A stretch of DNA of 20,196 bases from a virus: positions 1 to 20,196 of the IMG/VR virus record IMGVR_UViG_3300044729_001674; one strand, written 5' to 3'. The position numbers were made by a program, and so were the translations under genes. The notes below the pieces were generated by a model. That model ran no database searches. It saw only the letters and a list, made by a program, of their open reading frames with translations, and had not been told where the DNA came from. Below, piece after piece: positions 6,733-18,778 of the stretch; position 1 is the first letter of the stretch; every line of letters starts with the position of its first letter.

Positions 6733-7335
6733 TTACCACGTCTGAATTTGTACGCGCTTCCACGCGCCGCTGGCAGTGCAGAAATACAGATAATCCACAT
6801 CCCCGGCGATGGTTCCTGCCGTACACGCTGCCGCCGCTGAGGCTGGAGTCGTCGGGCCAACGACCAGAGACCAAGGCACCCAAGCTGCGCCGTTCCATCG
6901 GAGCAGTTGCCCCAGAGATGCGCCCTGCTGCCGGATCTGCGACGGCAGAAACAGCACGGTTGGCGTCGGCACGGTCGTGGAGCGGATCGCGCGGATGGTG
7001 GTCGCGCCGGTCGGGACCACCCAGGTTTCTGACCAGCCCGCGCCACTCGTGGGCGAATAGCGGGCCGTGTACGACGTCCCGGTGGGCGTGATGGCGTCGT
7101 TGGGGTAGAGCGTGATACTGAACGCGCCGTTCGCCACGGTCACAGTCTGCGACCAGCCGGAGAGCGTTTCCGAGCCAGCGTACAGCGGCTGACTCGTCGC
7201 CGGGTTGTTCAATGTCACGACGACCGCACCGCTCCAGTTGCCGCCCATGGGCGTTTTGATAGTGTCGGTGATAGTCACGGTCGTCTGCGCGTGCAGCATC
7301 GCCCCGGCAAAGGCCAGGTAGAGAAGGTATTTCAT
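6733..7335 (-). CDS. Exported fibre-like protein, 200 aa
   Basis: ATG 7335 follows AGGAG. The N-terminus MKYLLYLAFAGAMLHAQ is a short Sec signal peptide with a likely signal-peptidase I site after HAQ or before the Q. The mature part is Thr/Ser/Val-rich beta sequence, then 'GQLLRWNGAAWVPW' (about residues 142-155), a phrase typical of phage tail-fibre stalks, and ends with a small domain containing two Cys. It is the last gene of the late operon, after the holin. It could be a periplasmic or surface protein sharing fibre modules; a structural role in the virion would be odd for an exported protein. Confidence 0.75.
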   Translation of the reverse strand: MKYLLYLAFAGAMLHAQTTVTITDTIKTPMGGNWSGAVVVTLNNPATSQPLYAGSETLSGWSQTVTVANGAFSITLYPNDAITPTGTSYTARYSPTSGAGWSETWVVPTGATTIRAIRSTTVPTPTVLFLPSQIRQQGASLGQLLRWNGAAWVPWSLVVGPTTPASAAAACTAGTIAGDVDYLYFCTASGAWKRVQIQTW

Positions 7336-7346
7336 GGGTGGGGCTC

Positions 7347-7736
7347 CTATTTGTTCGTTTCCGCGTTGACCTTAGCCAATGCGTCGGTGAGGAATTTCGG
7401 CAAGCGCCAGCCAGCGCGGCCGACGTTCTCGGCGATGCTGATAAGTTCAGTGGCACAGAACCAAGTCGCCATCATGCTTGCGAGGTCGAAGCCGATGGGA
7501 TGGGCTGCAACAAAGGCATGAATCGCGGCGATCAACAGCAGCGCCACGGCCTTTTTGACGAATCCTCGGCGCGATACGTCCGACGACACCGCGCCGGAGG
7601 ACCACGCCACGAGAAAGCCCGTAGCAAAGTCGATGGCTTGCAGGATCAGGAGTGCTTGCAGTGCCACGCTCATTGACAGAAACACCCCCATTAATGCGCC
7701 CGGTAGGGCCAGGATCATCTTTTTCGCTGCGGTCAT
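7347..7736 (-). CDS. Phage holin, holin-4-like family
   Basis: Encodes 129 aa; ATG 7736 overlaps the previous stop (ATGA). Hydrophobic segments at about residues 7-25, 27-46 and 65-83, and a weaker one at 85-105. The phrase 'LQAIDFATGFLVAW' followed by 'SSDVSRRGFVKKAVALLLI' matches the holin-4 (phi105/toxin-secretion holin) pattern of a D-x-x-TG turn and an RRG-x-x-K-K motif before a membrane helix. Holins open the inner membrane at the end of infection to release a lysin. Its place beside a peptidoglycan-active protein fits. Confidence 0.82.
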   Translation of the reverse strand: MTAAKKMILALPGALMGVFLSMSVALQALLILQAIDFATGFLVAWSSGAVSSDVSRRGFVKKAVALLLIAAIHAFVAAHPIGFDLASMMATWFCATELISIAENVGRAGWRLPKFLTDALAKVNAETNK

Positions 7737-8059
7737 TCCGGCTTCCCTCCCACGGCTTTCGTAATCAGCACCTGGAACTCAGCGAGCTTCTGCATCGCGT
7801 CGGCCAAGGCTTCCTCGTCGATGATTTCCTTCCCCGTCAGCCGCTCTACTTCGCGGGCCATCAGCGGGGCGGACCATTCGAGCGTGCGCATGGCGTTCTG
7901 CAGCTTCTCCGGGCCACTGCCGCCCGCCTGCTCCGCGGCGGTCACCGCGCTGTAGACCGTCTGCGCCAGCGCATTGAGCGGCGGCGGCGTGAACATCAGC
8001 GCGATGGGCGCGGCGGTCTTTACCCCGCGCCCCAGTTTTTTCAGCCAGCCCCAAGCCAT
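7733..8059 (-). CDS. Small lysis-cassette protein of unknown role
   Basis: Encodes 108 aa; ATG 8059 shares a base with the previous stop (TAATG). It begins MAWGWLKKLGRGVKTAAPIA with a basic amphipathic start and a moderately hydrophobic segment (residues about 17-35), then a helical, charged C-terminal half (KEIIDEEALADAMQKLAEF). Similar small proteins with a basic N-terminus and Ala-rich middle sit near holins in other phages; I cannot name a function. It might be a membrane-associated partner of the holin. Confidence 0.68.
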   Translation of the reverse strand: MAWGWLKKLGRGVKTAAPIALMFTPPPLNALAQTVYSAVTAAEQAGGSGPEKLQNAMRTLEWSAPLMAREVERLTGKEIIDEEALADAMQKLAEFQVLITKAVGGKPE

Positions 8060-8451
8060 TACGGCCGCTCCAGGTCGTTGTACACGCGCCGGTAGCCATC
8101 CTCGCCATTCACGGCAATCTGGTAGGCGGCGTCGTGGACCTCGATCATGCGCTCGAACGTGCCCATGTCGTAGCGGAGGTGCAGGTGGATTGGCTTGTCA
8201 GGCGGGAAGCCTTCGCGGACCATCTCTTCGGCGTCGAAGTACGTCTCGCCGAGCCCGCCACCGTTAGCGATCAGCAACGGCGTCGGCAGGCCCATGCCGT
8301 TGCGATACCGCATGGACTTCGCGGAAAGCTCCTCGGCGAGCAACCGGCCCTCCTGCACGGTGGCCGTGTCGGTGTCTAGCTTCCCGGCGAAGGTCGCCTG
8401 ATATTTCTTCAGAATGTCGGGCTTGCCGACTTTTACGATGCGATCAAACAT
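8059..8451 (-). CDS. Unknown protein in lysis region, 130 aa
   Basis: Start at ATG 8451 (GGAG eight bases upstream), overlapping the L,D-transpeptidase gene by 8 bases; the frame's extension to 8538 is not needed. The protein begins MFDRIVKVGKPDILKKYQA, is soluble, and has a His-rich beta hairpin (DKPIHLHLRYDMG) and a C-terminal 'VNGEDGYRRVYND'. No catalytic signature recognised. Tightly coupled to lysis genes on both sides. Confidence 0.68.
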   Translation of the reverse strand: MFDRIVKVGKPDILKKYQATFAGKLDTDTATVQEGRLLAEELSAKSMRYRNGMGLPTPLLIANGGGLGETYFDAEEMVREGFPPDKPIHLHLRYDMGTFERMIEVHDAAYQIAVNGEDGYRRVYNDLERP

Positions 8452-8908
8452 TTTCAGTCTCCAATGTTTCAATGGTTTCGGGTTCGCCAAACGTAGCCGC
8501 CAAGAGCCATATCTGCCGCATGTCGTCATCGGCCACACGCAAGCATCCGAACGTGGGCCGCAGGTATGCCCAAGCCGCAGAGCGTCCCGGTGCCCCGCCG
8601 TGCAGCCAGATGCCGGAGCGTTTCGACGCCCGCAGCGCGTCCCCGCTGATCGGGTTCATGGTTATGACCGCATGTACACCGTAGGTTGACGCCGGAGCCA
8701 CTGGGCCGCGCTTCCCGCACTGCCACAGCCCCGTAGGCGTGTCGCCGAACGGCAACAGAGGGTTCCTGGTCGGGTTGCCTTCCTGACGCGCCCTTGCGTT
8801 GTCGGAGCGGCCCAGGACCGGGCAGCGGTGGATTACCGCGCCATCGTCGAGGGCCACGAGTTCGCCGGGGATGTCGCGATTCTTGGGGAGGGTTGCGCGG
8901 AGGATCAC
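8444..8908 (-). CDS. L,D-transpeptidase (YkuD-fold) protein
   Basis: Encodes 154 aa from GTG 8908, which overlaps the previous stop as GTGA. The YkuD signature is present: 'WLHGG' (His103-Gly104) and 'PTFGCLRV' with catalytic Cys122 and Arg124. The Gly-rich stretches around 60-66 and 88-90 fit the preceding beta strands. YkuD-fold enzymes form or exchange 3-3 peptidoglycan crosslinks or attach proteins to stem peptides. No signal peptide is visible, so access to the wall would depend on the holin or another route. It sits where an endolysin is expected, between fibre and holin genes. Whether it cuts or crosslinks cannot be told from sequence. Confidence 0.83.
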   Translation of the reverse strand: MILRATLPKNRDIPGELVALDDGAVIHRCPVLGRSDNARARQEGNPTRNPLLPFGDTPTGLWQCGKRGPVAPASTYGVHAVITMNPISGDALRASKRSGIWLHGGAPGRSAAWAYLRPTFGCLRVADDDMRQIWLLAATFGEPETIETLETENV

Positions 8909-9141
8909 GGCTTCACCCGATAGTGCGGGACGCGCCGCACCCCGGCAGGCGTCTGGACTTTGAACTCGCGCATCTCAACGCGGCCCGCCGGAATGCCGGA
9001 GGAAAGCAGTGTTGACGTATGCGGGCGGCTCAGGCCCCAAGCCTCGGACCACTGCTGGCAGGTCCGCCATCCGTCCGGGACGGTTTCGACGTTGCCTGAG
9101 ATTTCGCGCCGGAGTAGGGCGAGGGCTTCTAGAGCATCCAT
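8905..9141 (-). CDS. Small helix-turn-helix-like protein
   Basis: Encodes 78 aa from ATG 9141, with AGGAGG eight bases upstream, overlapping the phosphoesterase gene by 13 bases. Residues 25-50 (GWRTCQQWSEAWGLSR then HTSTLLSSGIPAGRVEM) read as a helix-turn-helix, with a C-terminal beta hairpin (VRRVPHYRV) like a small wing. It resembles winged-helix phage regulators of the excisionase/terminase-small type, but no target is known. A DNA-binding protein embedded between fibre and lysis genes is unexpected, and a role in late gene control is only a guess. Confidence 0.65.
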   Translation of the reverse strand: MDALEALALLRREISGNVETVPDGWRTCQQWSEAWGLSRPHTSTLLSSGIPAGRVEMREFKVQTPAGVRRVPHYRVKP

Positions 9142-9857
9142 CGGACATCCTCCTTCTCGCCGTGCTTGCAGTCCCAGGATTCGAGGTATAAGTGCGAGTG
9201 CGTGTCGCTGAAGTAGCCCCAGACCATGCCGTGCTTCCAGCGAAGCGTATTCCGCCGATCTGCCGCATAACCGAACTTGTCTGGGTCACCCATCATTCCG
9301 ACGCACCACGCTTGATCCGCTTCAGTATTCCGAGCGATAGCAGTTCCTGGGACGTGGAGATGAGCAATTACACAGCGCCCATAGGCCTCGGCGTGATCCC
9401 GGATGGCCTGCTCGTTGTACATCCAGCCGTGGCCCCAAAGCGTCCCGCCGAACTGGTGCCAGCCGCCGCGCTGCCGGTAGGGCTTGACGATTGTTCCATT
9501 CTCCCGATCTACTTCGGCCAAGTCGTTGAACAACGCCGATGCCGCAAAGCGGATGATCTTGTTTGGGTGATTCGATAGCTTCGTCACCCGGTTGTCGTGG
9601 TTTCCGAAGCACCGATGCGTGGGTCGGTACATTTCCAGCCAACGCTTGGACGCCGCGAAGTCTTCGACTAGATCTTGGTCAAGATCACAAGCCCCCGCGC
9701 CGGAACGGAACGCGGCCCAATCATTGATATCCCCCAAGTCGATGGCCACATCGGGCTCGAACTGGCGCTTGAACTCCAGCACAGCAGCCGCAGCAACCGG
9801 GCATATCAATGGGCCGTGAGTACAACCCACGGCCATGATCTTGCGCCAGGCGCTCAT
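9129..9857 (-). CDS. Calcineurin-like metallophosphoesterase
   Basis: Encodes 242 aa; ATG 9857 lies 3 bases after the previous stop. Metal-site motifs: 'GCTHG' (residues 11-15), 'DLGDINDW' (40-47), 'GNHD' (85-88), 'WGHG' (141-144) and 'AHLH' (165-168). These match the calcineurin-type phosphoesterase layout in order and spacing, so a two-metal phosphodiesterase or phosphatase is likely. The first motif normally reads D-x-H; here Asp is replaced by Cys12, while His14 is kept. No signal peptide. Substrate unknown: nucleotides, RNA or wall polymers are all possible. Its place among exported and lysis proteins is unusual. Confidence 0.82.
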   Translation of the reverse strand: MSAWRKIMAVGCTHGPLICPVAAAAVLEFKRQFEPDVAIDLGDINDWAAFRSGAGACDLDQDLVEDFAASKRWLEMYRPTHRCFGNHDNRVTKLSNHPNKIIRFAASALFNDLAEVDRENGTIVKPYRQRGGWHQFGGTLWGHGWMYNEQAIRDHAEAYGRCVIAHLHVPGTAIARNTEADQAWCVGMMGDPDKFGYAADRRNTLRWKHGMVWGYFSDTHSHLYLESWDCKHGEKEDVRWML

Positions 9858-9860
9858 GCC

Positions 9861-10286
9861 TTACGGGACCGCCACCTTCGCCGATTCCCGCAACTCGGTG
9901 ACTTCAACGCTGACGATCTCGATTTCCCCAAGCACCCAGGACGCCCCCGAGTCGTAGGTCGGGTGGACCTCGGCGAACTGCACGACCGTATCGAGGTGGC
10001 CGTTTCTGCGGTAGGTCATGGCGATGCGATATGCGCGGATGGTCGGGTCGGAAGACCGCACCCATACCTGTTGGCCTTTCTCGGTGGGAAACATCGTCGC
10101 GCCGGTCGCGCGGAGGACCGCCGGGTAGTCGATGCACTGCACCCTGACGTAGCCGGTGGCCGTTTTCGTTTCGCGGCCGCAGAGGTCGGAGGGTTGCGCC
10201 GAAGCCACCGTAGCCCATGCGAAGCACGCGGCCAGAGCGATGACCGCAAACGTGAACAGGTCAATGAGAAACGTCCGGATACTCAT
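9861..10286 (-). CDS. Exported or membrane-anchored small protein, 141 aa
   Basis: ATG 10286 shares a base with the preceding stop (TAATG); the frame's extension to 10382 is not used. The hydrophobic N-terminus (residues 6-28) ends in 'VASAQ', a signal-peptidase I site after residue 30; a LAAC lipobox-like phrase at 18-21 is less likely because the hydrophobic core continues past it. The mature part is beta-rich (TGYVRVQCIDYPAVL, then WVRSSDPTIRAYR) with two Cys that could pair. No family recognised. Third of three consecutive exported proteins downstream of the fibre. Confidence 0.7.
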   Translation of the reverse strand: MSIRTFLIDLFTFAVIALAACFAWATVASAQPSDLCGRETKTATGYVRVQCIDYPAVLRATGATMFPTEKGQQVWVRSSDPTIRAYRIAMTYRRNGHLDTVVQFAEVHPTYDSGASWVLGEIEIVSVEVTELRESAKVAVP

Positions 10287-10549
10287 TACTTCTTCACTTC
10301 TTTCACCGCTTCGGCCTTCTTGACCGACGCCGTGGCCTGGTCGAACTGGCACGCGGCAAGGTCGATCCCGGCGCGCTTGCAAGCGCCCTCGAAGACCTTC
10401 TGCGCGTCGGCCTGGATTTCTTTCTTCTGGCTCTCGAGCAGCGCCAGCTTGAGTTGCGCGTTTTCGAGGGCGAGCTTTTCTTCGTTGTTGAGCGGGGTCT
10501 GCGCGAGGGCGAACGCCGCTAGGGTCAGGGTCAGTAGGGTGGTACGCAT
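10286..10549 (-). CDS. Exported coiled-coil small protein, 87 aa
   Basis: Start at ATG 10549, 4 bases after the previous stop. The signal peptide MRTTLLTLTLAAFALAQ is almost identical to that of the next upstream gene. The mature part is a long charged helix (NEEKLALENAQLKLALLESQ onward) followed by two Cys ten residues apart (GACKRAGIDLAAC) and a Lys-rich end. It could be a periplasmic coiled-coil, in size and layout not unlike a spanin component, but no matching partner is shown. Function unknown. Confidence 0.72.
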   Translation of the reverse strand: MRTTLLTLTLAAFALAQTPLNNEEKLALENAQLKLALLESQKKEIQADAQKVFEGACKRAGIDLAACQFDQATASVKKAEAVKEVKK

Positions 10550-10553
10550 AAAA

Positions 10554-10946
10554 TCATTGGGCCTTCGCCGCGTCAAAGAGTGCCTTACGCGCGGCTGCGA
10601 TAGCGGCTTCGCGGGCTTTCAGGTCATCAACCAGCGGCTTGAGTTGGGAGGATGGATACAGCAACGCGAGCTCCTTCGCCTTCTCGATTACGAGGGCGCG
10701 GACGTACAGCGCGGGGTTCGCGAACTTCGCGCGGCAGTTGACATTGTTGCCGTCGCCGTCCAGGTCGCATGCCTGTTCTGCCGCGATGGACTGCTGCAGA
10801 ATCTGCAGCCCGGCTGCGGCTGGTGGGCCAGTGATGGCAGATTCATGCTTCGTCCCGTCTGGCATTGTGACTACAATGCGAAGCGCGGACTTATCTTGGG
10901 CAAGCGCGAACGCCGCGAAAATTAAGAGTAGTAGGGTGGTACGCAT
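10554..10946 (-). CDS. Exported small protein, 130 aa
   Basis: ATG 10946 lies 7 bases after the fibre stop. The signal peptide MRTTLLLLIFAAFALAQ is cleavable after ALA. The mature region begins with a beta hairpin (SALRIVVTMPDGTKHES), then a helix with two Cys around 'ACDLDGDGNNVNCR', a D-x-D-G-D-x-N phrase that looks like a single calcium-binding loop, and a helical Ala/Lys-rich C-terminus. Likely periplasmic or secreted. Unknown function. Shares its leader peptide with the following gene, suggesting local duplication. Confidence 0.72.
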   Translation of the reverse strand: MRTTLLLLIFAAFALAQDKSALRIVVTMPDGTKHESAITGPPAAAGLQILQQSIAAEQACDLDGDGNNVNCRAKFANPALYVRALVIEKAKELALLYPSSQLKPLVDDLKAREAAIAAARKALFDAAKAQ

Positions 10947-10953
10947 AAGTCGT

Positions 10954-13900
10954 TTAGGGGGTTCCGCAAGTCGCCGCCGTTACGAGGCCGCGCGACACGG
11001 TGAGAGTCTTGATCGCTTCACCGGCGCCACACGAATAGGTAGCGGTTGCCGTGGCCGAGCCGCCCGTCGTGACGGTGCCGGAAAAATCTACGCTTGATCC
11101 AGCATCAGAAAACAGGCTCCCCCCGCTCTGCAGGGTGATATTTGCGCCGTTCCTGATCCGGTGCGATCCGTAGGTGTCCGCGCCGTTGTAGAAGAGTCCG
11201 GCCACTCGCTGCGATGCTGAGCCGATTTCCCACGTTGAACTGATGCTCGGCAGCAAGTTGCCGCCGAACGTAACTCCGGCAGTGCTCAAGGTTCCGTTTA
11301 CCGCAAGCGTCCCAGTCACAACCACGTTGCCGCTGATGGTGCCGCCGCCCGTGGTGTAGCAAGTAGGGCACGAGATAGTCCCAGATCCCGTGATGGTCCC
11401 GCCGAAGATCGGGCCGGACGTTGCGATGGACGTTACCGTGCCAGAGCCTTTTCCGTTCAATTGCGTCTGAATGTTCGACGTGACGCCATCCAAAAAGCTG
11501 ACCTCGGCAGGACTGATCGAAGCAGAGGCCGCACTGATCGTGCTGCCAGTTTCAAGTATGAGAGTGCCGCCGCTCTGATAGGCAGTATTTGCTCCGTTGC
11601 GAACGCGGTGCGATCCGTACTGATCCGCGCTCGCGTAGAAAATTCCGCCAACTCGGAACCCGGCTTCGCCGATGTCGCAACAAAGGTCCGTCAGCGGGCG
11701 GACTAGGCCGTTGAATATCAGTGTGCTGTTGGTAGTCAGCACCCCACCTATAGTCTGATTACCAGACCAACTATTGCCGCCTGCGAGATTCCCTTTGGCA
11801 TTCAACTGCGTCTGAATTGCCGCAGTCACGCCGTCCAGATACCCCAGTTCCGTTGTGGAAATCGACGTGTTCAGCGTGCCGGTAAACGACAGGTTCCCCG
11901 TCACAGCCAACCCTGCCGCATTCACCACCACCGAAGTCGTCCGCGAAGCCGCACCGTTCGCCGTCGTCTCGAATCTCAGTTCGGTGCCTTGCGCGGAACC
12001 AGCGGACCAGTTCTGCGTGGCCCATGCCGTGATGTTCGCGCCGTTGTAGTTCGCGCCGCCCGTGCGAAGGCCGAAGGCATAAAACGCAAGCCGATCGCCC
12101 GATGCCGGAGCGGTCTCAATAGCCGCCTGGATGCCCGCGCCGCCCGATGGCGAAGGCGTGCCGGAGTTGTGGATGCGGAGGCCGTTCACGTCCGCAGCAC
12201 GGCTAAACAGCGTTGCCGTGGTCAGGTCCGTCGAGCCGACTGCGACGGCCCCAGCAAAGGTCGAGGTGCTACCGAACGTCGCCGCGCCGTTGGCGCCAAA
12301 CGTGCCGGATACGTCGAGCTTCGTGGACGGAGATGTACACCCCACGCAAACCGAGCCACCAGAATTCACCAGAGCGATGTCCCGCCAAGCCACACCCTGC
12401 GAAAGTGCATTGATGGAAAAGTACGGCGTCGCGGCTGAAGCAACGAACGCCAGAAATGCACCTTGGCCGGGGGCTCCGGTGTCTCCGTTTCCGATGTGGA
12501 GCGTCGTATCGGCGGTATTCGTCCCGCTGTAAACCTTCGCAGTGGCTCCGATCACTTCGAGCGCGTGCGCTGGAGTCGACGTATTGATGCCCAGGGAGCC
12601 CGCCACGGTCGCGCCTGATGCGCGGGCAACTACCGATGCTGTCCGCGTCGCCGCGCCGTTGGCGGTGGTTTCCAAGCGCAGTTCGGTGCCTTGCGCCGAA
12701 CCAAGCGTCCAGGTTTGGGTCGTGAAGGCAGTCACCGACGCGCCGTTGTAGCGGGTGCCGGAGACGAAGCTGCCGAAGCTGTAGAACGCGAGCCGATCCC
12801 CGCTGGAAGGCGTCGATTCCATCGCCGCCTGAATCCCAGCGCCAGCCGTGCTCGATGACGTTCCACTGTTGTGGATGGCGAGGACGTTGACGTCGGAAGT
12901 TCGCGCCAGCAGACGAGCGATTGATGTCGTCGTGTCGCCAATTGCGACGTTTCCGGTGTTGTAGTAGAGGTCGCTCCCGCTCACCACCCACGGCGACGTA
13001 GCAGGCGTGGCCCAGTCGCCGCTGCCATCGGTGCCGGTGGCGGTCCAGACTTGGCCTACGGTCGAGGAAGTCCCGAGTTTCACGGTGCCCGCGAAATCCA
13101 CGTCATAGCCCCAGATCTTCCCCATGCGAACCGACGAGGAGCCGATCGGCGTCCCGCCGTCCGTGCCGCCCGCAAATGCAGTCGTCGCCGTGATGGTTCC
13201 GGCCGTCGCGGAGCCCGCGCTCAATGCGTTCGTGATGGTGGCAGCATCGCCCCAGATGGACAACCAACGCGCGGAGGTATTGCCAAGCGTCGGCATTGCC
13301 GAGTCGTTCACCGCGTCGCCGTCTGCCGTGGCGCGCTGAGCGGGCCGGAGTTCGCCGAACACGCGAACATAGTTCGCCGCGCTGGATGCCTCTTGCCGTA
13401 CCGCTTGCAATGCACGAGAGCCGCCATTGTCGCGGAGAGTCCACGCGCTCGTTACGGTCGTCGCGTTTGCCCGTTGGTCCCAGAATGCCGTGCCGCCGAG
13501 GATGTCCGAGATCTCCAGCTTGCGGACCTTCGTGTAGGCGGCCGCCACGCCACCGGGGGCCGCGTTGATGTTTTCGACGTTGAGAGTCTGGAAATAGTTC
13601 GTCGCGTCCCCGATATCCGCCGTCGAAGGCGACGTCGTGAGGATGTGCGAGGAGATCGTAGCCGTCCCCGCAACAGCAAGCGTACTCCCCAACGTCACCG
13701 CGCCCGCCGCCCGGAACGTCCCGGCCACGTTCAGCCGGAACGATGTGTCAATCGCGCCCACGCCCACAACACCTTCACGCGGCTGTAGAAGCAGCTGATT
13801 ATTGACGCCCCCGTAGGCGTACGTCGTTGGGTCCGTCTGCCCGTCAAGCATCGTCTGGATGCCCATCTGGTTATCGGCAATTCGATACATCACGAGCCGA

Positions 13901-14244
13901 TCAGCGCCGGAGACGCCGAAATACTTAAAGCCTTCGACCTCTTGGTTGGTCGTCGTTAGGACCGCGCCCACACCAGGGCAGGCCGCGAAAGACAACACTC
14001 CCGCCGTGGTGCCTGTAAGGCAGTGGCCGTTCGATGCGGGCGCGGCGGTGGGCAGGGTGAGGGTGTAGGAGGCGGTGGCCGTAGTGGGCGCTTGGATCGT
14101 CACCAGCTTGCCGTCTGCCCGCCGAGTCAAAAATTGCAATTGCCCGGTGCTGACGTCGTTGGATGACGGATAGATGGCTATGTCACTAACGCGGAACTGC
14201 GCCAGCGCTGGGAGCGAGAATGCAAGTAGGGCAAGGAGTCTCAT
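10954..14244 (-). CDS. Large tail fibre protein with N-terminal signal-like peptide
   Basis: Encodes 1096 aa; ATG 14244 shares a base with the previous stop (TAATG). The body is Gly/Ser/Thr/Ala-rich with fibre phrases: 'SLGINTSTPAHALEV' and 'CTSPSTKLDVSG' (GIGT-SP type), two 'LDGVT..IQTQLN' units near the C-terminal third, and two 'YGSHR.RNGAN' units. Two ~105-residue blocks (about 434-541 and 669-772) are repeats of each other. No C-terminal S74 chaperone peptidase domain is recognisable. Adsorption to the host surface is the expected role, following tape measure and hub genes. Odd: it begins MRLLALLAFSLPALAQ, a classic Sec signal peptide. Confidence 0.85.
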   Translation of the reverse strand: MRLLALLAFSLPALAQFRVSDIAIYPSSNDVSTGQLQFLTRRADGKLVTIQAPTTATASYTLTLPTAAPASNGHCLTGTTAGVLSFAACPGVGAVLTTTNQEVEGFKYFGVSGADRLVMYRIADNQMGIQTMLDGQTDPTTYAYGGVNNQLLLQPREGVVGVGAIDTSFRLNVAGTFRAAGAVTLGSTLAVAGTATISSHILTTSPSTADIGDATNYFQTLNVENINAAPGGVAAAYTKVRKLEISDILGGTAFWDQRANATTVTSAWTLRDNGGSRALQAVRQEASSAANYVRVFGELRPAQRATADGDAVNDSAMPTLGNTSARWLSIWGDAATITNALSAGSATAGTITATTAFAGGTDGGTPIGSSSVRMGKIWGYDVDFAGTVKLGTSSTVGQVWTATGTDGSGDWATPATSPWVVSGSDLYYNTGNVAIGDTTTSIARLLARTSDVNVLAIHNSGTSSSTAGAGIQAAMESTPSSGDRLAFYSFGSFVSGTRYNGASVTAFTTQTWTLGSAQGTELRLETTANGAATRTASVVARASGATVAGSLGINTSTPAHALEVIGATAKVYSGTNTADTTLHIGNGDTGAPGQGAFLAFVASAATPYFSINALSQGVAWRDIALVNSGGSVCVGCTSPSTKLDVSGTFGANGAATFGSTSTFAGAVAVGSTDLTTATLFSRAADVNGLRIHNSGTPSPSGGAGIQAAIETAPASGDRLAFYAFGLRTGGANYNGANITAWATQNWSAGSAQGTELRFETTANGAASRTTSVVVNAAGLAVTGNLSFTGTLNTSISTTELGYLDGVTAAIQTQLNAKGNLAGGNSWSGNQTIGGVLTTNSTLIFNGLVRPLTDLCCDIGEAGFRVGGIFYASADQYGSHRVRNGANTAYQSGGTLILETGSTISAASASISPAEVSFLDGVTSNIQTQLNGKGSGTVTSIATSGPIFGGTITGSGTISCPTCYTTGGGTISGNVVVTGTLAVNGTLSTAGVTFGGNLLPSISSTWEIGSASQRVAGLFYNGADTYGSHRIRNGANITLQSGGSLFSDAGSSVDFSGTVTTGGSATATATYSCGAGEAIKTLTVSRGLVTAATCGTP
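11929..12945 (-). repeat. Two-copy internal repeat in the fibre gene
   Basis: About 320-base units at 12621-12945 and 11929-12240 encode related blocks, sharing phrases such as 'IHNSGT', 'AGIQAA.E..P.SGDRLAFY' and 'GSAQGTELR.ETTANGAA'. Nucleotide similarity is strong at the ends, e.g. around 11975-12000 and 12675-12700. The region between them holds a different fibre segment. Boundaries are approximate. Confidence 0.75.
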
Positions 14245-16184
14245 TAGATCAGTCCGAAGGCTGGAGTATTACAGCGGACGTGCTTTCCGTCGCGCATTGT
14301 CATGAACTGAAAGACGTTGAGCAGATTCGGGGTCGAGTCGATCCCGACAGCTCCAACGCCGCGAAAATTGCCGCCCCAAACAAGCACTCTCCCGTCTGTA
14401 CCGTCGTTCTCGATAATCACGGTAAACATCGTTCCGGGCGTCGATGGGTCGGTGCCAAAAACGGCATCGCTGATCGTGGTGGTGGCGCGGTCGAGTAGGA
14501 TTTCCTGAGTGAGCCCGTTTGACAGGTCAAGCGTGATCGTCGTAGCCCCGCCAACGTAATAGATGCCGCCTGAAGTGCTGTAAGGGGCCGCGGGCGTCAA
14601 CACGCCGCCCGAAATGGAACTGCTTGCCGCGCCGCCGCCGATCATGGCTTTCCAGTACTCCTGGATGCCAATGATGGATGTTCCACTGATAGCCCGCACG
14701 CGCGCCTTGAGATACTGGCCTGCAACGTCCGTCAGGTAGACTTCATTTACGAGGTACGTGGCCGAACTCACACCGCGCGGAGTGTTCGCTACGGTTTGCA
14801 GTTGCCCCGGCTTGACCGTTGCGCAAAGCGGCTCCACTATCTGGTCGGTCTCATACTCGACCTCGACAACCGGATTCTTCCGCGCCGCGATCACGGCCTC
14901 AGCCGCTAAGAATGCTTGGACTTGCCCGATCTCCCGCTCTGTGTAACGCTCATATCGTCCGCTGCCGCCGTCTTCCTGCGTGATCGTTGCCGCGATATCA
15001 GTGGCGTCCTCGGCAGTCACCACGTCGGCCCCGAGTTTCTGGTAGATCACTTGGAGCGTGTTGCCGCTGGTCAGCACGTCGCCCGCCGCGTCTTGCCGGA
15101 TCTTTGTCGATCCGAACTCCCAGTACCATTCGCGGTCCGTGTCGGCCAGGAATTGGCCGATTTCAGCTACCTGCCCATCGACGCTGATACTCACGATCTG
15201 CGCCAACCGGTGCGCTAGCGTGAAGGTCCGCGCGGTGCCGTCACCCGAGAACGATTCCGTTTCGCTCACGATCTGGTTCCAAGGCACCCGGGTGAGGATC
15301 GCGTTTACCTTGTCCTCGCGCGTGCGGCGGATTCGCAGTGAGCGATAGTTGCCGCTGGTCGTGGAGACGTTGAACGGCGCGTTGGCAAACGTGCGCGGCT
15401 TGAAGTACAGTTCCCGCTCCTCGTCCATCCACACAGCGAAGCCGCATACTTGGGCGAGTTCGTTGATCGCTTCCATAACGCTGGCGTTGGCGTCGAACGT
15501 CACCACGTCAAGCACCGCGCCCGCGTCGACGTTCGTGGTGCCGATGCCCTCGTTCGATGCGTAGTTGGTCACTAGGTCCACCACGACATCGCCCGCGCGC
15601 GTGGTGAGCAGGACCTGGTCCAGCGTCCCGGCGTCGAGTATATCTACCGCGCTGCCGCCGCTGGTCAGGGATAGCTGTAGCGTGCTTGTTGTCGCACCGA
15701 TGACAAAATACTCGATGGTTGCATCGAGGCCGTCGCAGAGCGTGCCCTGCGCGTGCGCTTTCACCCGCACCCGGTCGCCGTTGCTGCGCCCGTGCGCCGA
15801 TACCGTCGTCAGCGTGTCCGTTGCCGGATTGGCCGTGAAAAGAAACGTCCCGTCGTAATGCGCTGGCAGCGAAGTGCTCGGGTTGTAACAGCGCCGCCGG
15901 TCCAAGCGCTGCTCCCAGGTGATGCCCCGGATATCATAAAACGCGCCCGCGGCTGAGCCCGCCTCAGTGATCGAAACCTCGGATACCTCATCGACCGAAC
16001 CGGCCCATAGTTTGGTTGCTCCGTCGAACAGTTCTATCTCGTGGCCCTGCTCAGGTCGATACGCGCCGCTCGTTGAGATCACGCGCATATTGAACGATCC
16101 ACGCTGACCGGCCGTCGCCGCAATGTTTAGCGAGTAGTGAGCGATTTCGCGGATGGCGCCGTCGATGTAGACGTCTAGGCTCAC
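14244..16184 (-). CDS. Tail hub / tail-tip protein
   Basis: Encodes 646 aa from GTG 16184 (GTGA overlap with the tape-measure stop; GGAG 11 bases upstream). The N-terminus ('DVYIDGAIREI' then 'GHEIELFDGATKLWAGSVDE') resembles the beta-barrel start of phage hub/distal-tail proteins (gp27/Tal-like). A small inserted Ser/Thr-rich domain (about residues 110-190) is of the kind found as a decoration in tail proteins. The centre (AINELAQVCGFAVWMDEERE) matches hub domain phrases. The C-terminal 120 residues form a beta module ('FTVIIENDGTDGRVLVWGGN') seen in fibre/collar proteins. It follows the tape measure directly, so it probably caps the tail tube and carries the fibre. Confidence 0.82.
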   Translation of the reverse strand: MSLDVYIDGAIREIAHYSLNIAATAGQRGSFNMRVISTSGAYRPEQGHEIELFDGATKLWAGSVDEVSEVSITEAGSAAGAFYDIRGITWEQRLDRRRCYNPSTSLPAHYDGTFLFTANPATDTLTTVSAHGRSNGDRVRVKAHAQGTLCDGLDATIEYFVIGATTSTLQLSLTSGGSAVDILDAGTLDQVLLTTRAGDVVVDLVTNYASNEGIGTTNVDAGAVLDVVTFDANASVMEAINELAQVCGFAVWMDEERELYFKPRTFANAPFNVSTTSGNYRSLRIRRTREDKVNAILTRVPWNQIVSETESFSGDGTARTFTLAHRLAQIVSISVDGQVAEIGQFLADTDREWYWEFGSTKIRQDAAGDVLTSGNTLQVIYQKLGADVVTAEDATDIAATITQEDGGSGRYERYTEREIGQVQAFLAAEAVIAARKNPVVEVEYETDQIVEPLCATVKPGQLQTVANTPRGVSSATYLVNEVYLTDVAGQYLKARVRAISGTSIIGIQEYWKAMIGGGAASSSISGGVLTPAAPYSTSGGIYYVGGATTITLDLSNGLTQEILLDRATTTISDAVFGTDPSTPGTMFTVIIENDGTDGRVLVWGGNFRGVGAVGIDSTPNLLNVFQFMTMRDGKHVRCNTPAFGLI

Positions 16185-18778
16185 TTCGGGATGACTCCAA
16201 GCTGCTTCAGTTCGCGCGTGATGGCTTCGAGCATCTGTCGCGGGTCGCCGCCGTTGACGTTGATGGTCACTGTTGCGCCGCCGCCACCAGCGACGCTCAT
16301 CTGTCGCGTCTCCATGCGGATCAGCGAGTCCCAGATGTCCTTCAGTTTTGGGAGGTACTCGTTGTGTTTTTCGAGGATGTGCAGCAGGTGAATCTGGGAA
16401 TAGCGAACTTCCTTTTCGATCAGGTCGAGGGTCTTATTCATCCCGGCCATTTGAAAGTTCCCGATGACTCCAGACACCAGCGATCCGATACTGGTGACCA
16501 TGCCTAAGATGCCGCCCGAGGCAGCGGACACGGCAGAGCTTGCAGGATTCTGCCCGCCCGGTGACTTGCCACCATTACCACCGCCGCCGCCAAGAATGCC
16601 GCCAATCTTTGCGGCTACGCCACCCATACTGGCCAGCAGCTTGCCGAGAAGCTTGATGCCTTCGTTAACGGCGTACTCAATCCCCATCCGCAGAAGGCCA
16701 TCGACCGCCGCGTTGCCAACCTTCCGCATCGCTTCGCCGATACTCTCTGTCCCGCGGATGATGTTGACCACGGCGCGGGAGAAGTCGGTTTGGATCGTGG
16801 AGACTTGGCGCGAGATGCCCGTGCGGACGTTCTTCCATGAGTCTTGCGCGCCCTTCGCCGTCTGCCGGATGATTTCGAGATTGCGCTGCGAGGAGCGGGC
16901 CGCGTCGGCAGAGTTGAGCGTAGCGCCCGCGCCTGTCGGGTCGCCGGTGACGATCATCTGACCCAGCGCCAAATTCCGCGCCGATTGCGCTGCGGTCTGG
17001 ATGTCGCCAATGGCCATCATGGCCCGCTCAGCCGCAAAGTCGAACGAGTCAGCTACATCGACCATTGCGGGCCGGATTGCGCCCACGCCGTCGATGAACT
17101 TCAGGTACTCTTGTCCGAGTGATTCCGTCGCCCGCCGCAAGTCGATCGTGCTAACCTTGCCTTCCTTGAAAGCTTGCTCGATGACACTGAGCGCCTGCCG
17201 CGCTCGCGCAAAGCCACCGATGGCGTCGGAGGTATTCGAGACTCCGAGGCGCGTGAAGGCTTGCGCCAGTTGATCGACGGCTTCTTTGGCTGCAGTGATC
17301 GCGGGCTTCAGCTTGCCATTGGCCGCGCCGTTCTTATCCGTTGCCGCCGTCGCTTCGTCCAACTTGCCGCGGACGCGCCCGAGTTGGCTTTCCAGTTCAC
17401 CGCGCCTAAGAATGGCCTCGTTCTCGTTGACGGCAGCTTTTAGGCTGGTAGACAGGTTCGACCGAATCGCCTCGTCCATCGCACGGGATTCGCCGTTCCA
17501 CTTGCGGAGCGCATCGGCCCCGGACTCGAACACCTTTGCGAACGCAAAAATAGGCGAAAGCATTCGGGCTGTTTCCGCTGCCAAGTTGTAGATATTGCGC
17601 AGGATATCGAATATCTGCTTATGGATAACGATAGAAGCGTTGAAAACGGCGCTAGCACTTTTCCACGATGCCTCGAACCCTTTTAGGCCGCCAGTTGCAA
17701 ACATTAATTCTTTTGAAAACTCGCCGAACGACTTAGTCAATCTGGCAACATCCTCAGCCGTGCGAATTGCCAAAACAACGACGCCAAATGCAGCCCCCAA
17801 GGCGTTACTCGCTTGGCTAGTGATATCAAACGCAACCTTGACACGCTTGAGCGCTGAGGTTATTGCGGCTGTCTTTTCGACCAGAGTTCCAACTACTACC
17901 AGCACCAACGGGAGCGCAGCAGACAGCGCCGTAATTCCGACCACAGCGTCCTGGGCTCCGGGATTCATTGCTGAAAATGCCTTGGCCAATTCCTTGGCCT
18001 TCTCAATCGCAGGATTTAGAAACTCATTCAGTACCCGCTGGCCATACGGCAACAACGACTTTCCAAACTCAGCCGCCGTCTCGAATGCGGATTCCTTCAG
18101 GTTTTCGAGCGAGTTCGCAAACGTCGCGCCGGCGCGTTCGCCCTTGCCGAGTTCGGCGACGATGATATCGATGAACTGCTTCGAACTAATCCCGAGCCGC
18201 TCGAACGTCTTCGCGGGGTCGCCCAACGACTCCGGCCCGAACTTCTCGCGCATGATCGCCGCGATCTGCGGGATGCGCTCGATGATAGGGTCGAGATTTT
18301 CTTTGGTGACTTTGCCCACTGCCGAAAGCTGCGACAATTGCCGGATGACTTCGCGGAAGTCCTCTTTCCCGCCGCCAACCGTCGCTAGGGCGTTCCCCAG
18401 CTCCATCATCACCTTGCGGGATTCGTCGGCGCTGCTGCCGAGGGTCTGGAGCCGGATGGAACCCTGTACCGCTTCCTGGAGGCCAAGGCCGGGGAGCTTC
18501 GAGACAACCTTCAGCCGCTCCAGTTCCTTGCCCGCCGCCGTGGTCGATTTCATCGTCGCGGCGAGGCCCTTTTCGAGCTTCTCCATGTCCGCAGCCGCAG
18601 CGAGAGCGCCAGCGCCCGCCGCGATCAGCGGGGCGCTGAAGCCGATAGAAAGAGCCTGACCAGCCTGCGACATCGACGCGCCGAAGCGCTGGATCTTGCC
18701 TAGTGAGGCGTTCAGCTTCTTGTCGAAGTCGTCGGTCGACGCGCCGATCCGAACGATGAGATTAGACAGTACACCCAT
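16181..18778 (-). CDS. Tail tape measure protein
   Basis: Encodes 865 aa; ATG 18778 shares a base with the stop of the frameshifted chaperone (TAATG). The N-terminal 230 residues carry the tape-measure domain: 'GASMSQAGQALSIGFSAPLI', 'AAADMEKLEKGLAATMKST', 'LQEAVQGSIRLQTLGSSADE' and 'LSAVGKVTKENLDPIIERIP'. A hydrophobic stretch at about 275-305 and a Gly-rich segment near 765-800 are typical. The rest is helical. It sets tail length and is ejected with DNA. By the usual rule of about 0.15 nm per residue, the tail would be near 130 nm. Confidence 0.93.
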   Translation of the reverse strand: MGVLSNLIVRIGASTDDFDKKLNASLGKIQRFGASMSQAGQALSIGFSAPLIAAGAGALAAAADMEKLEKGLAATMKSTTAAGKELERLKVVSKLPGLGLQEAVQGSIRLQTLGSSADESRKVMMELGNALATVGGGKEDFREVIRQLSQLSAVGKVTKENLDPIIERIPQIAAIMREKFGPESLGDPAKTFERLGISSKQFIDIIVAELGKGERAGATFANSLENLKESAFETAAEFGKSLLPYGQRVLNEFLNPAIEKAKELAKAFSAMNPGAQDAVVGITALSAALPLVLVVVGTLVEKTAAITSALKRVKVAFDITSQASNALGAAFGVVVLAIRTAEDVARLTKSFGEFSKELMFATGGLKGFEASWKSASAVFNASIVIHKQIFDILRNIYNLAAETARMLSPIFAFAKVFESGADALRKWNGESRAMDEAIRSNLSTSLKAAVNENEAILRRGELESQLGRVRGKLDEATAATDKNGAANGKLKPAITAAKEAVDQLAQAFTRLGVSNTSDAIGGFARARQALSVIEQAFKEGKVSTIDLRRATESLGQEYLKFIDGVGAIRPAMVDVADSFDFAAERAMMAIGDIQTAAQSARNLALGQMIVTGDPTGAGATLNSADAARSSQRNLEIIRQTAKGAQDSWKNVRTGISRQVSTIQTDFSRAVVNIIRGTESIGEAMRKVGNAAVDGLLRMGIEYAVNEGIKLLGKLLASMGGVAAKIGGILGGGGGNGGKSPGGQNPASSAVSAASGGILGMVTSIGSLVSGVIGNFQMAGMNKTLDLIEKEVRYSQIHLLHILEKHNEYLPKLKDIWDSLIRMETRQMSVAGGGGATVTINVNGGDPRQMLEAITRELKQLGVIPK

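Follow-up and report, generated by a model that had tools for sequence, protein, structure and literature searches.

A predicted Sec leader and paired cysteines on a tail fibre of an uncultured tailed phage

The window analysed here, i.e., the whole stretch of 20196 bases, was an IMG/VR virus record from an uncultured tailed phage, which is known here from its sequence. On the minus strand, the tape measure gene was followed by a hub, a fibre, three small exported-looking proteins and a metallophosphoesterase (PF00149), and then by a protein with a weak match to YkuD (under Pfam's cut-off), a holin (PF05105) and a short fibre-like protein with a leader of its own. Relatives of the phage carried tailed-phage terminase, portal and major head genes. 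The features were as follows (^ marks a predicted cut):

16181-18778, minus strand: tape measure protein (PF20155, 65.4 bits), as context
14244-16184, minus strand: putative tail hub, Mu gp44-like (BK063672 homologue; Foldseek on a low-confidence model), adjoining the tape measure, its end overlapping the fibre start
14244-14582, minus strand: knob-like C-terminal domain of the hub, about residues 535-646, delimited by eye
14090-14620, minus strand: putative two-allele recombination cassette comprising hub C-terminus, fibre leader and the first ~50 fibre residues (nine relatives)
10954-14244, minus strand: leader-bearing tail fibre of 1096 aa (ORF, relatives, orthologue L145)
14200-14244, minus strand: fibre leader, residues 1-15, with a predicted signal peptidase I cut before Gln16
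13978-14022, minus strand: C75-x13-C89 motif of the first mature domain, CLTGTTAGVLSFAAC (alignment)
10554-10946, minus strand: small leader-bearing protein, MRTTLLLLIFAAFALA^Q, two mature cysteines
10286-10549, minus strand: small leader-bearing protein, helical-looking by eye, MRTTLLTLTLAAFALA^Q, two mature cysteines
9861-10286, minus strand: small protein starting MSIRTFLIDLFTFAVIALAACFAWATVASAQ, then two cysteines; TAATG overlap with the preceding gene
6733-7335, minus strand: second, short fibre-like protein, own leader MKYLLYLAFAGAMLHA^Q, two mature cysteines

The window fibre matched no entry in Pfam or PHROGs, and no PDB sequence at E 0.01. Its gene directly followed the hub, and its orthologue L145, 45% identical over 735 columns, matched the PHROG tail fiber family phrog_18345; the distant L283 also matched this family, while L284 and L148 matched no tail-fibre family. 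An AlphaFold model of fibre residues 1-203 had a mean pLDDT of 35. For the hub, Foldseek returned Mu gp44-type hubs (best listed E 3.9e-8) from a weak model of mean pLDDT 51, with TM no higher than 0.26 in the 24 matches at E ≤ 0.001; the BK063672 homologue likewise adjoins its tape measure. Searches of named phages with the fibres, hub, tape measure and small proteins gave no matches or remote ones, and a plasmid search gave no relatives. Similarly, terminase and fibre N-domain profiles had no match in 84,980 bacterial and archaeal genomes, a scan that reaches close relatives only; an Acidobacteriota host is conceivable, as similar leaders occur there. Relative G002 encodes an integrase, which suggests that some phages of the group are temperate.

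The first-pass annotation had placed a Sec signal peptide at the head of the fibre and regarded the start as well fixed, and both statements were borne out. The N-terminus read MRLLALLAFSLPALA^Q (first residues MRLLALLAFSLPALAQ) from an ATG codon, to which the TAA stop of the hub ORF donates its last A, giving TAATG. All 20 distinct fibre entries from lineages A, B and C (described below) showed this overlap; some of these entries are cut pieces of one fibre. The only other in-frame ATG, GTG or TTG in codons 2-70 were TTG36, TTG39 and GTG48; a downstream start was ruled out, since each of these would truncate the conserved first domain. In the lineage C fibre, AGGAG stood immediately 5' of the leader ATG. 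Leaders were called by a rule of our own (positive n-region, hydrophobic core of 8 aa, AxA-like site) and not by SignalP; under this rule the window fibre had a basic n-region, a hydrophobic core and small residues at -3 and -1, with the cut predicted after A15 (A13-x-A15^Q16). Its score was equalled by 75 of 20000 shuffles of residues 2-30, and random internal 30-mers of the fibre attracted any leader call in 232 of 20000 cases; these two controls ruled out the leader as a chance sequence. The strict form of the rule is weak alone, as across the window it also called the holin, the metallophosphoesterase, 7733-8059 and several ORFs that are probably non-coding.

Every close homologue with a readable start bore a leader. 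The close relatives had two leader alleles, A being that of the window and B reading MRTIIITALLPFSLLA^Q or MRTIIIAALLPLSLLG^Q. Further lineages carried MRAFLLLLPVLMFG^Q (C; L144-L147), MRQLLLILATLAAFG^Q (D; L268/L283), MNKRIVLFVLATRAAFPQ, with no clear cleavage site (E; L269/L284), MRKLLSLAFAIGLFASPASA^D (F; L148/L286) and MTRTLLSVFVFCLCACA^Q (G; L276/L279/L285). The sequences differed from lineage to lineage and the basic start and hydrophobic core were common to all, i.e., leader character was kept in seven lineages while the residues were extensively replaced, C and E counting by a relaxed rule only. The strict rule called A, B, D, F and G; the relaxed rule, which was devised after C and E had been seen, also passed those two. 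Glutamine directly followed the predicted cut in A, B, C, D and G. In all seven lineages the fibre start overlapped the end of the upstream ORF, as TAATG in A-D, ATGA in G, TGATG in F and ATGAATAA in E, whose record holds just the final part of that ORF. By PHROGs, the upstream hubs were baseplate hubs for C and D and lambda J-like for G. Identity to the first domain of the window fibre was 26-43% for C, D, E and G over ~200 residues. On a different phage contig (L286, G029, minus strand), the tail region contained leader-bearing ORFs in series (fibre, 98 aa, 721 aa, 271 aa) with leaders of a different style.

The claim that tail fibres seldom have such a leader held among the matches listed for the 'AxYTLTLP' motif, a pattern found at no fewer than 80 loci. 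The comparison among these listed matches comprised 59 non-family ORFs (55 unique) that had a readable start and were 150 aa or longer. Under the strict rule, four of the 55 were called (L170, L185, L192 and L194), two of them convincing by eye, i.e., L170, which is lipoprotein-like, and L194; the relaxed rule called seven. The 55 included L157, L188, L222 and L227, which were without the rest of the domain and evidently not fibres, and 49 of the 55 fitted a simple expression for the domain, the same four strict-called ORFs among them. L170 and L194 were both fibre-like and had no cysteine pair; the leader of L170 read MKKLFLIGIAFLMFGC, with two more leader-bearing ORFs following this ORF, and that of L194 read MKNIFKLAIAALLIPATVLA.

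A further scan was one to which the N-terminus was invisible. A DNA pattern for the paired-cysteine motif retrieved 25 stretches. Lineages A, B and C accounted for 20 of these, L267 contained no ORF, and the remaining four were new and fell into three groups (L268; L269; L276 with L279). A leader headed all 24 ORFs, 20 of them by the strict rule. Counted by groups (A/B/C, D, E and G), this was 4/4 against 4/55 in the comparison set (Fisher's test, p = 1.5e-4), or 3/4 with E scored as leaderless (p = 0.004); the groups are not fully independent, because their first domains are homologous through shared descent. Lineage F was excluded from the test, having been found by a query that contained the cysteine motif.

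The cysteine pattern and the exported-looking neighbours go beyond what was noted at first pass. The mature window fibre had 10 cysteines in five close pairs (75/89, 633/636, 855/856, 959/962 and 1072/1093), an arrangement with a probability of 0.00015 under random placement. Equivalents of C75 and C89 were invariant in all nine of the fibres aligned, from lineages A, B, C, D, E and G, and C-x13-C occurred in the leader-bearing fibres A-E and G; other fibres differed there, e.g., VLTTDGSGNLSWA in L149. In lineage F the homologous pair was 375/390. Mature fibres of A-F contained 10, 10, 8, 13, 18 and 12 cysteines respectively, mostly in close pairs and even in number in five of six; the exception was D with 13, and pairing in F was weak (0.013). 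In related phages, the leaderless fibres encoded at this locus had 0, 1, 0 and 2 cysteines. A cysteine occurred within 45 residues of the 'AxYTLTLP' motif in one of 59 non-family ORFs (L227, where the domain is not the same). The leaderless ORFs of that sample comprised 19 with no cysteine, 21 with an odd number and 17 with an even number, and among the 18 leaderless proteins of the window, G001 and G002 that contain cysteine, 12 had an odd number. In PMC7678975, exported proteins are described as favouring even cysteine numbers. Judged by these patterns, the mature fibre looks made for an oxidising compartment.

Four proteins downstream of the fibre look exported, each with two mature cysteines. 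Including homologues, exactly two were present in 10 of 12 counted proteins from four families (10554; 10286 plus three homologues; 9861 plus two; 6733 plus one), a count that leaves out the further leader-bearing ORFs of L286; the exceptions were the 98-aa protein of L148, with none, and an extra gene of L027, with three. Of 11 records searched for homologues of 10286-10549, 6 had one, located downstream of fibres C, D and E; this helical-looking protein may alternatively be a spanin. The N-terminus of 9861-10286 was called by neither rule; its homologues in L124, L125 and L126 had strict leaders. The protein at 6733-7335 matched a PHROG tail protein at its C-terminus. Its homologue in L123 (minus strand, 8196-8825) had a different leader, a leader thus being kept across divergent phages. 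In L031 (7932-10898, corresponding to window 7347-9857), the phosphoesterase, a putative lysis enzyme and the holin appeared by eye to be swapped for other versions.

Comparison of nine relatives indicated a cassette with two alleles, which spans ~110 aa of hub C-terminus, the leader and the first ~50 residues of the fibre; two relatives had the window type and seven the other. The hub C-terminus and fibre N-terminus switched together in 9/9. Nucleotide identity was ~50-70% within the cassette and mostly 80-100% for several hundred bases on each side; in some relatives, it fell again beyond ~13700 in the fibre and in parts of the tape measure. Such co-switching is expected if hub and fibre ends fit each other; adjacency alone could suffice. 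By eye, a knob-like domain was common to the hubs preceding fibres A, B, C and G, while that of D differed. Fibre C-terminal types were exchanged between the N-terminal alleles; the type KVAM occurred in 2 of 10 distinct complete A/B/C fibres, once on allele A and once on allele B. An extra gene with a hydrophobic N-terminus followed both KVAM fibres and was absent after the other eight. In L027 this gene (10336-10866, 176 aa), tied to the KVAM tip, had no Pfam or PHROG match and was called from its own ATG by neither leader rule.

The first-pass annotation had pointed to the N-termini of homologous fibres, and these divided: the close homologues agreed with it, all readable starts having a leader, and distant ones in other phages (e.g., L215, L210 and Synechococcus phage S-B05) did not, being also without the cysteine pair. 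A terminase search gave relatives at 52 loci, and of 19 records tried with a hub profile, nine matched. Five of the nine were read downstream of the hub and had it fused to a long extension; the next fibre (MAWLSRVNF...) was leaderless in the four records that reach far enough. These fibres (L123-L126) resembled that of the window in their operon position after a homologous hub and differed in having no leader, 0-2 cysteines and a hub with the fused extension. Across L123-L127 the fused ORF was up to 1436 aa; hub and fibre were split in the window clade. Leader-bearing homologues persisted beside leaderless fibres, of 9861-10286 in three records and of 6733-7335 in one. Two annotated tail fibres, of the cultured tailed phages S-B05 (QCW22873) and Pelagibacter phage Mosig (QOI69032), matched the N-terminal domain of lineage D and had no leader by the strict rule; they contained 3 and 1 cysteines in total, and the S-B05 fibre read DALVTDGSGNLSFST at the position of the cysteine pair.

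The receptor-binding fibres of tailed phages are generally regarded as products of cytoplasmic assembly. To our knowledge, no tailed phage has a fibre that is exported to the periplasm and then joins tails, and among the openly licensed papers listed in literature searches, none was seen to describe a tailed phage whose tail fibre bears a leader. In its leader and cysteine pairs, the window fibre can be likened in working to pIII of filamentous phages, a receptor-binding protein with a signal peptide and disulfides on the periplasmic side of assembly. Filamentous phages are not tailed, and their virions are extruded without lysis; membership of pIII was ruled out by the tailed-phage terminase, portal and head genes of relatives and by the absence of a PDB sequence match at E 0.01. 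The P22 tailspike and T4 fibres attach to finished particles in vitro, a precedent for late joining; unlike the fibre proposed here, they are cytoplasmic products. Targets of phage DGRs are without signal peptides according to PMC6199706.

The leader and its conservation, the cysteine pairing, the linked hub/fibre cassette and the swapped tips are indicated by the sequences compared, and their best reading is that the fibre is very probably exported and oxidised. Translocation, cleavage, oxidation, docking at lysis, a helper role and receptor binding are what we infer beyond this. At a probability of roughly 0.5, we propose that a receptor-binding fibre leaves the cytoplasm through Sec, undergoes oxidation in the periplasm and is attached to tails at lysis, the docking onto virions or tails being a step to which we give even odds overall. 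Translation of the fibre would be coupled to that of the hub; the leader would route the product through Sec, and signal peptidase I would cut before Gln16. The fibre would then fold and form disulfides in the periplasm, perhaps aided by the small co-exported proteins, while heads, and tails with hub, would be assembled in the cytoplasm. Once holin and endolysin open the cell, the fibre would meet the tail, its N-terminus docking on the C-terminal domain of the hub. Several points count against this: lineage D has an odd number of cysteines (13), the strict rule makes false calls, and the leaders of C and E fail it. Additionally, a periplasmic fibre would have to encounter tails in time, receptor binding could be the task of the hub's own knob, and the co-switching could reflect mere adjacency.

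Export, which the first-pass annotation had listed among three options, is the one favoured here. Leaders and cysteine pairs would also suit an exported protein outside the virion. Such a fibre and its partners, released or held at the envelope, might bind receptors, block superinfection, act as decoys or condition the neighbourhood, with the hub knob alone binding the host. The terminal knob of the hub and the lysogeny allowed by the G002 integrase fit this account, as does lambda lom, an exported outer-membrane protein gene among tail genes as here (PMC12309495); Lom differs in being an outer-membrane barrel and not a fibre. We consider it possible but rather unlikely, given that the fibre start overlaps the hub stop inside the tail gene cluster, that hub and fibre ends co-switch, and that inspection by eye of the ORFs of 150 aa or more in G001 and G002 showed no fibre-like gene lacking a leader. 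The hydrophobic hook, another of the three options, would have an untranslocated leader plugging the fibre onto hub or tape measure in the cytoplasm; leader and hub C-terminus do share one cassette, cleavage is predicted from sequence alone, and lineage E has no clear cleavage site. The paired and mostly even cysteines speak against it, as do the glutamine right after the predicted site in five lineages and the small neighbours with similar leaders and two cysteines each, making it improbable. Least credible, and in our judgement very improbable, is the capture of host-type secreted proteins by the tail locus, the leaders being leftovers without present function. It is true that the leaders resemble ordinary bacterial ones and that certain members of the group carry a fibre without any leader in place of this one; however, leaders were retained in seven lineages despite extensive residue replacement, and two genome scans, reaching close relatives only, gave no bacterial relative.

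Returning to the proposal that the fibre joins tails at lysis, it may be extended, more tentatively, to an adsorption apparatus built in two compartments, with capsid and tail in the cytoplasm, fibre and dedicated helpers in the periplasm through Sec and host disulfide formation, and the two joined when lysis mixes them. If export and late joining are true, there would be a second assembly route for tailed-phage fibres, and the extra exported genes in tail operons would be explained. A leader together with C-x13-C would then provide a sequence rule for finding such phages in metagenomes, and the fibres could perhaps be produced by secretion. If the two-compartment reading is also true, infectivity would be switched on at release.
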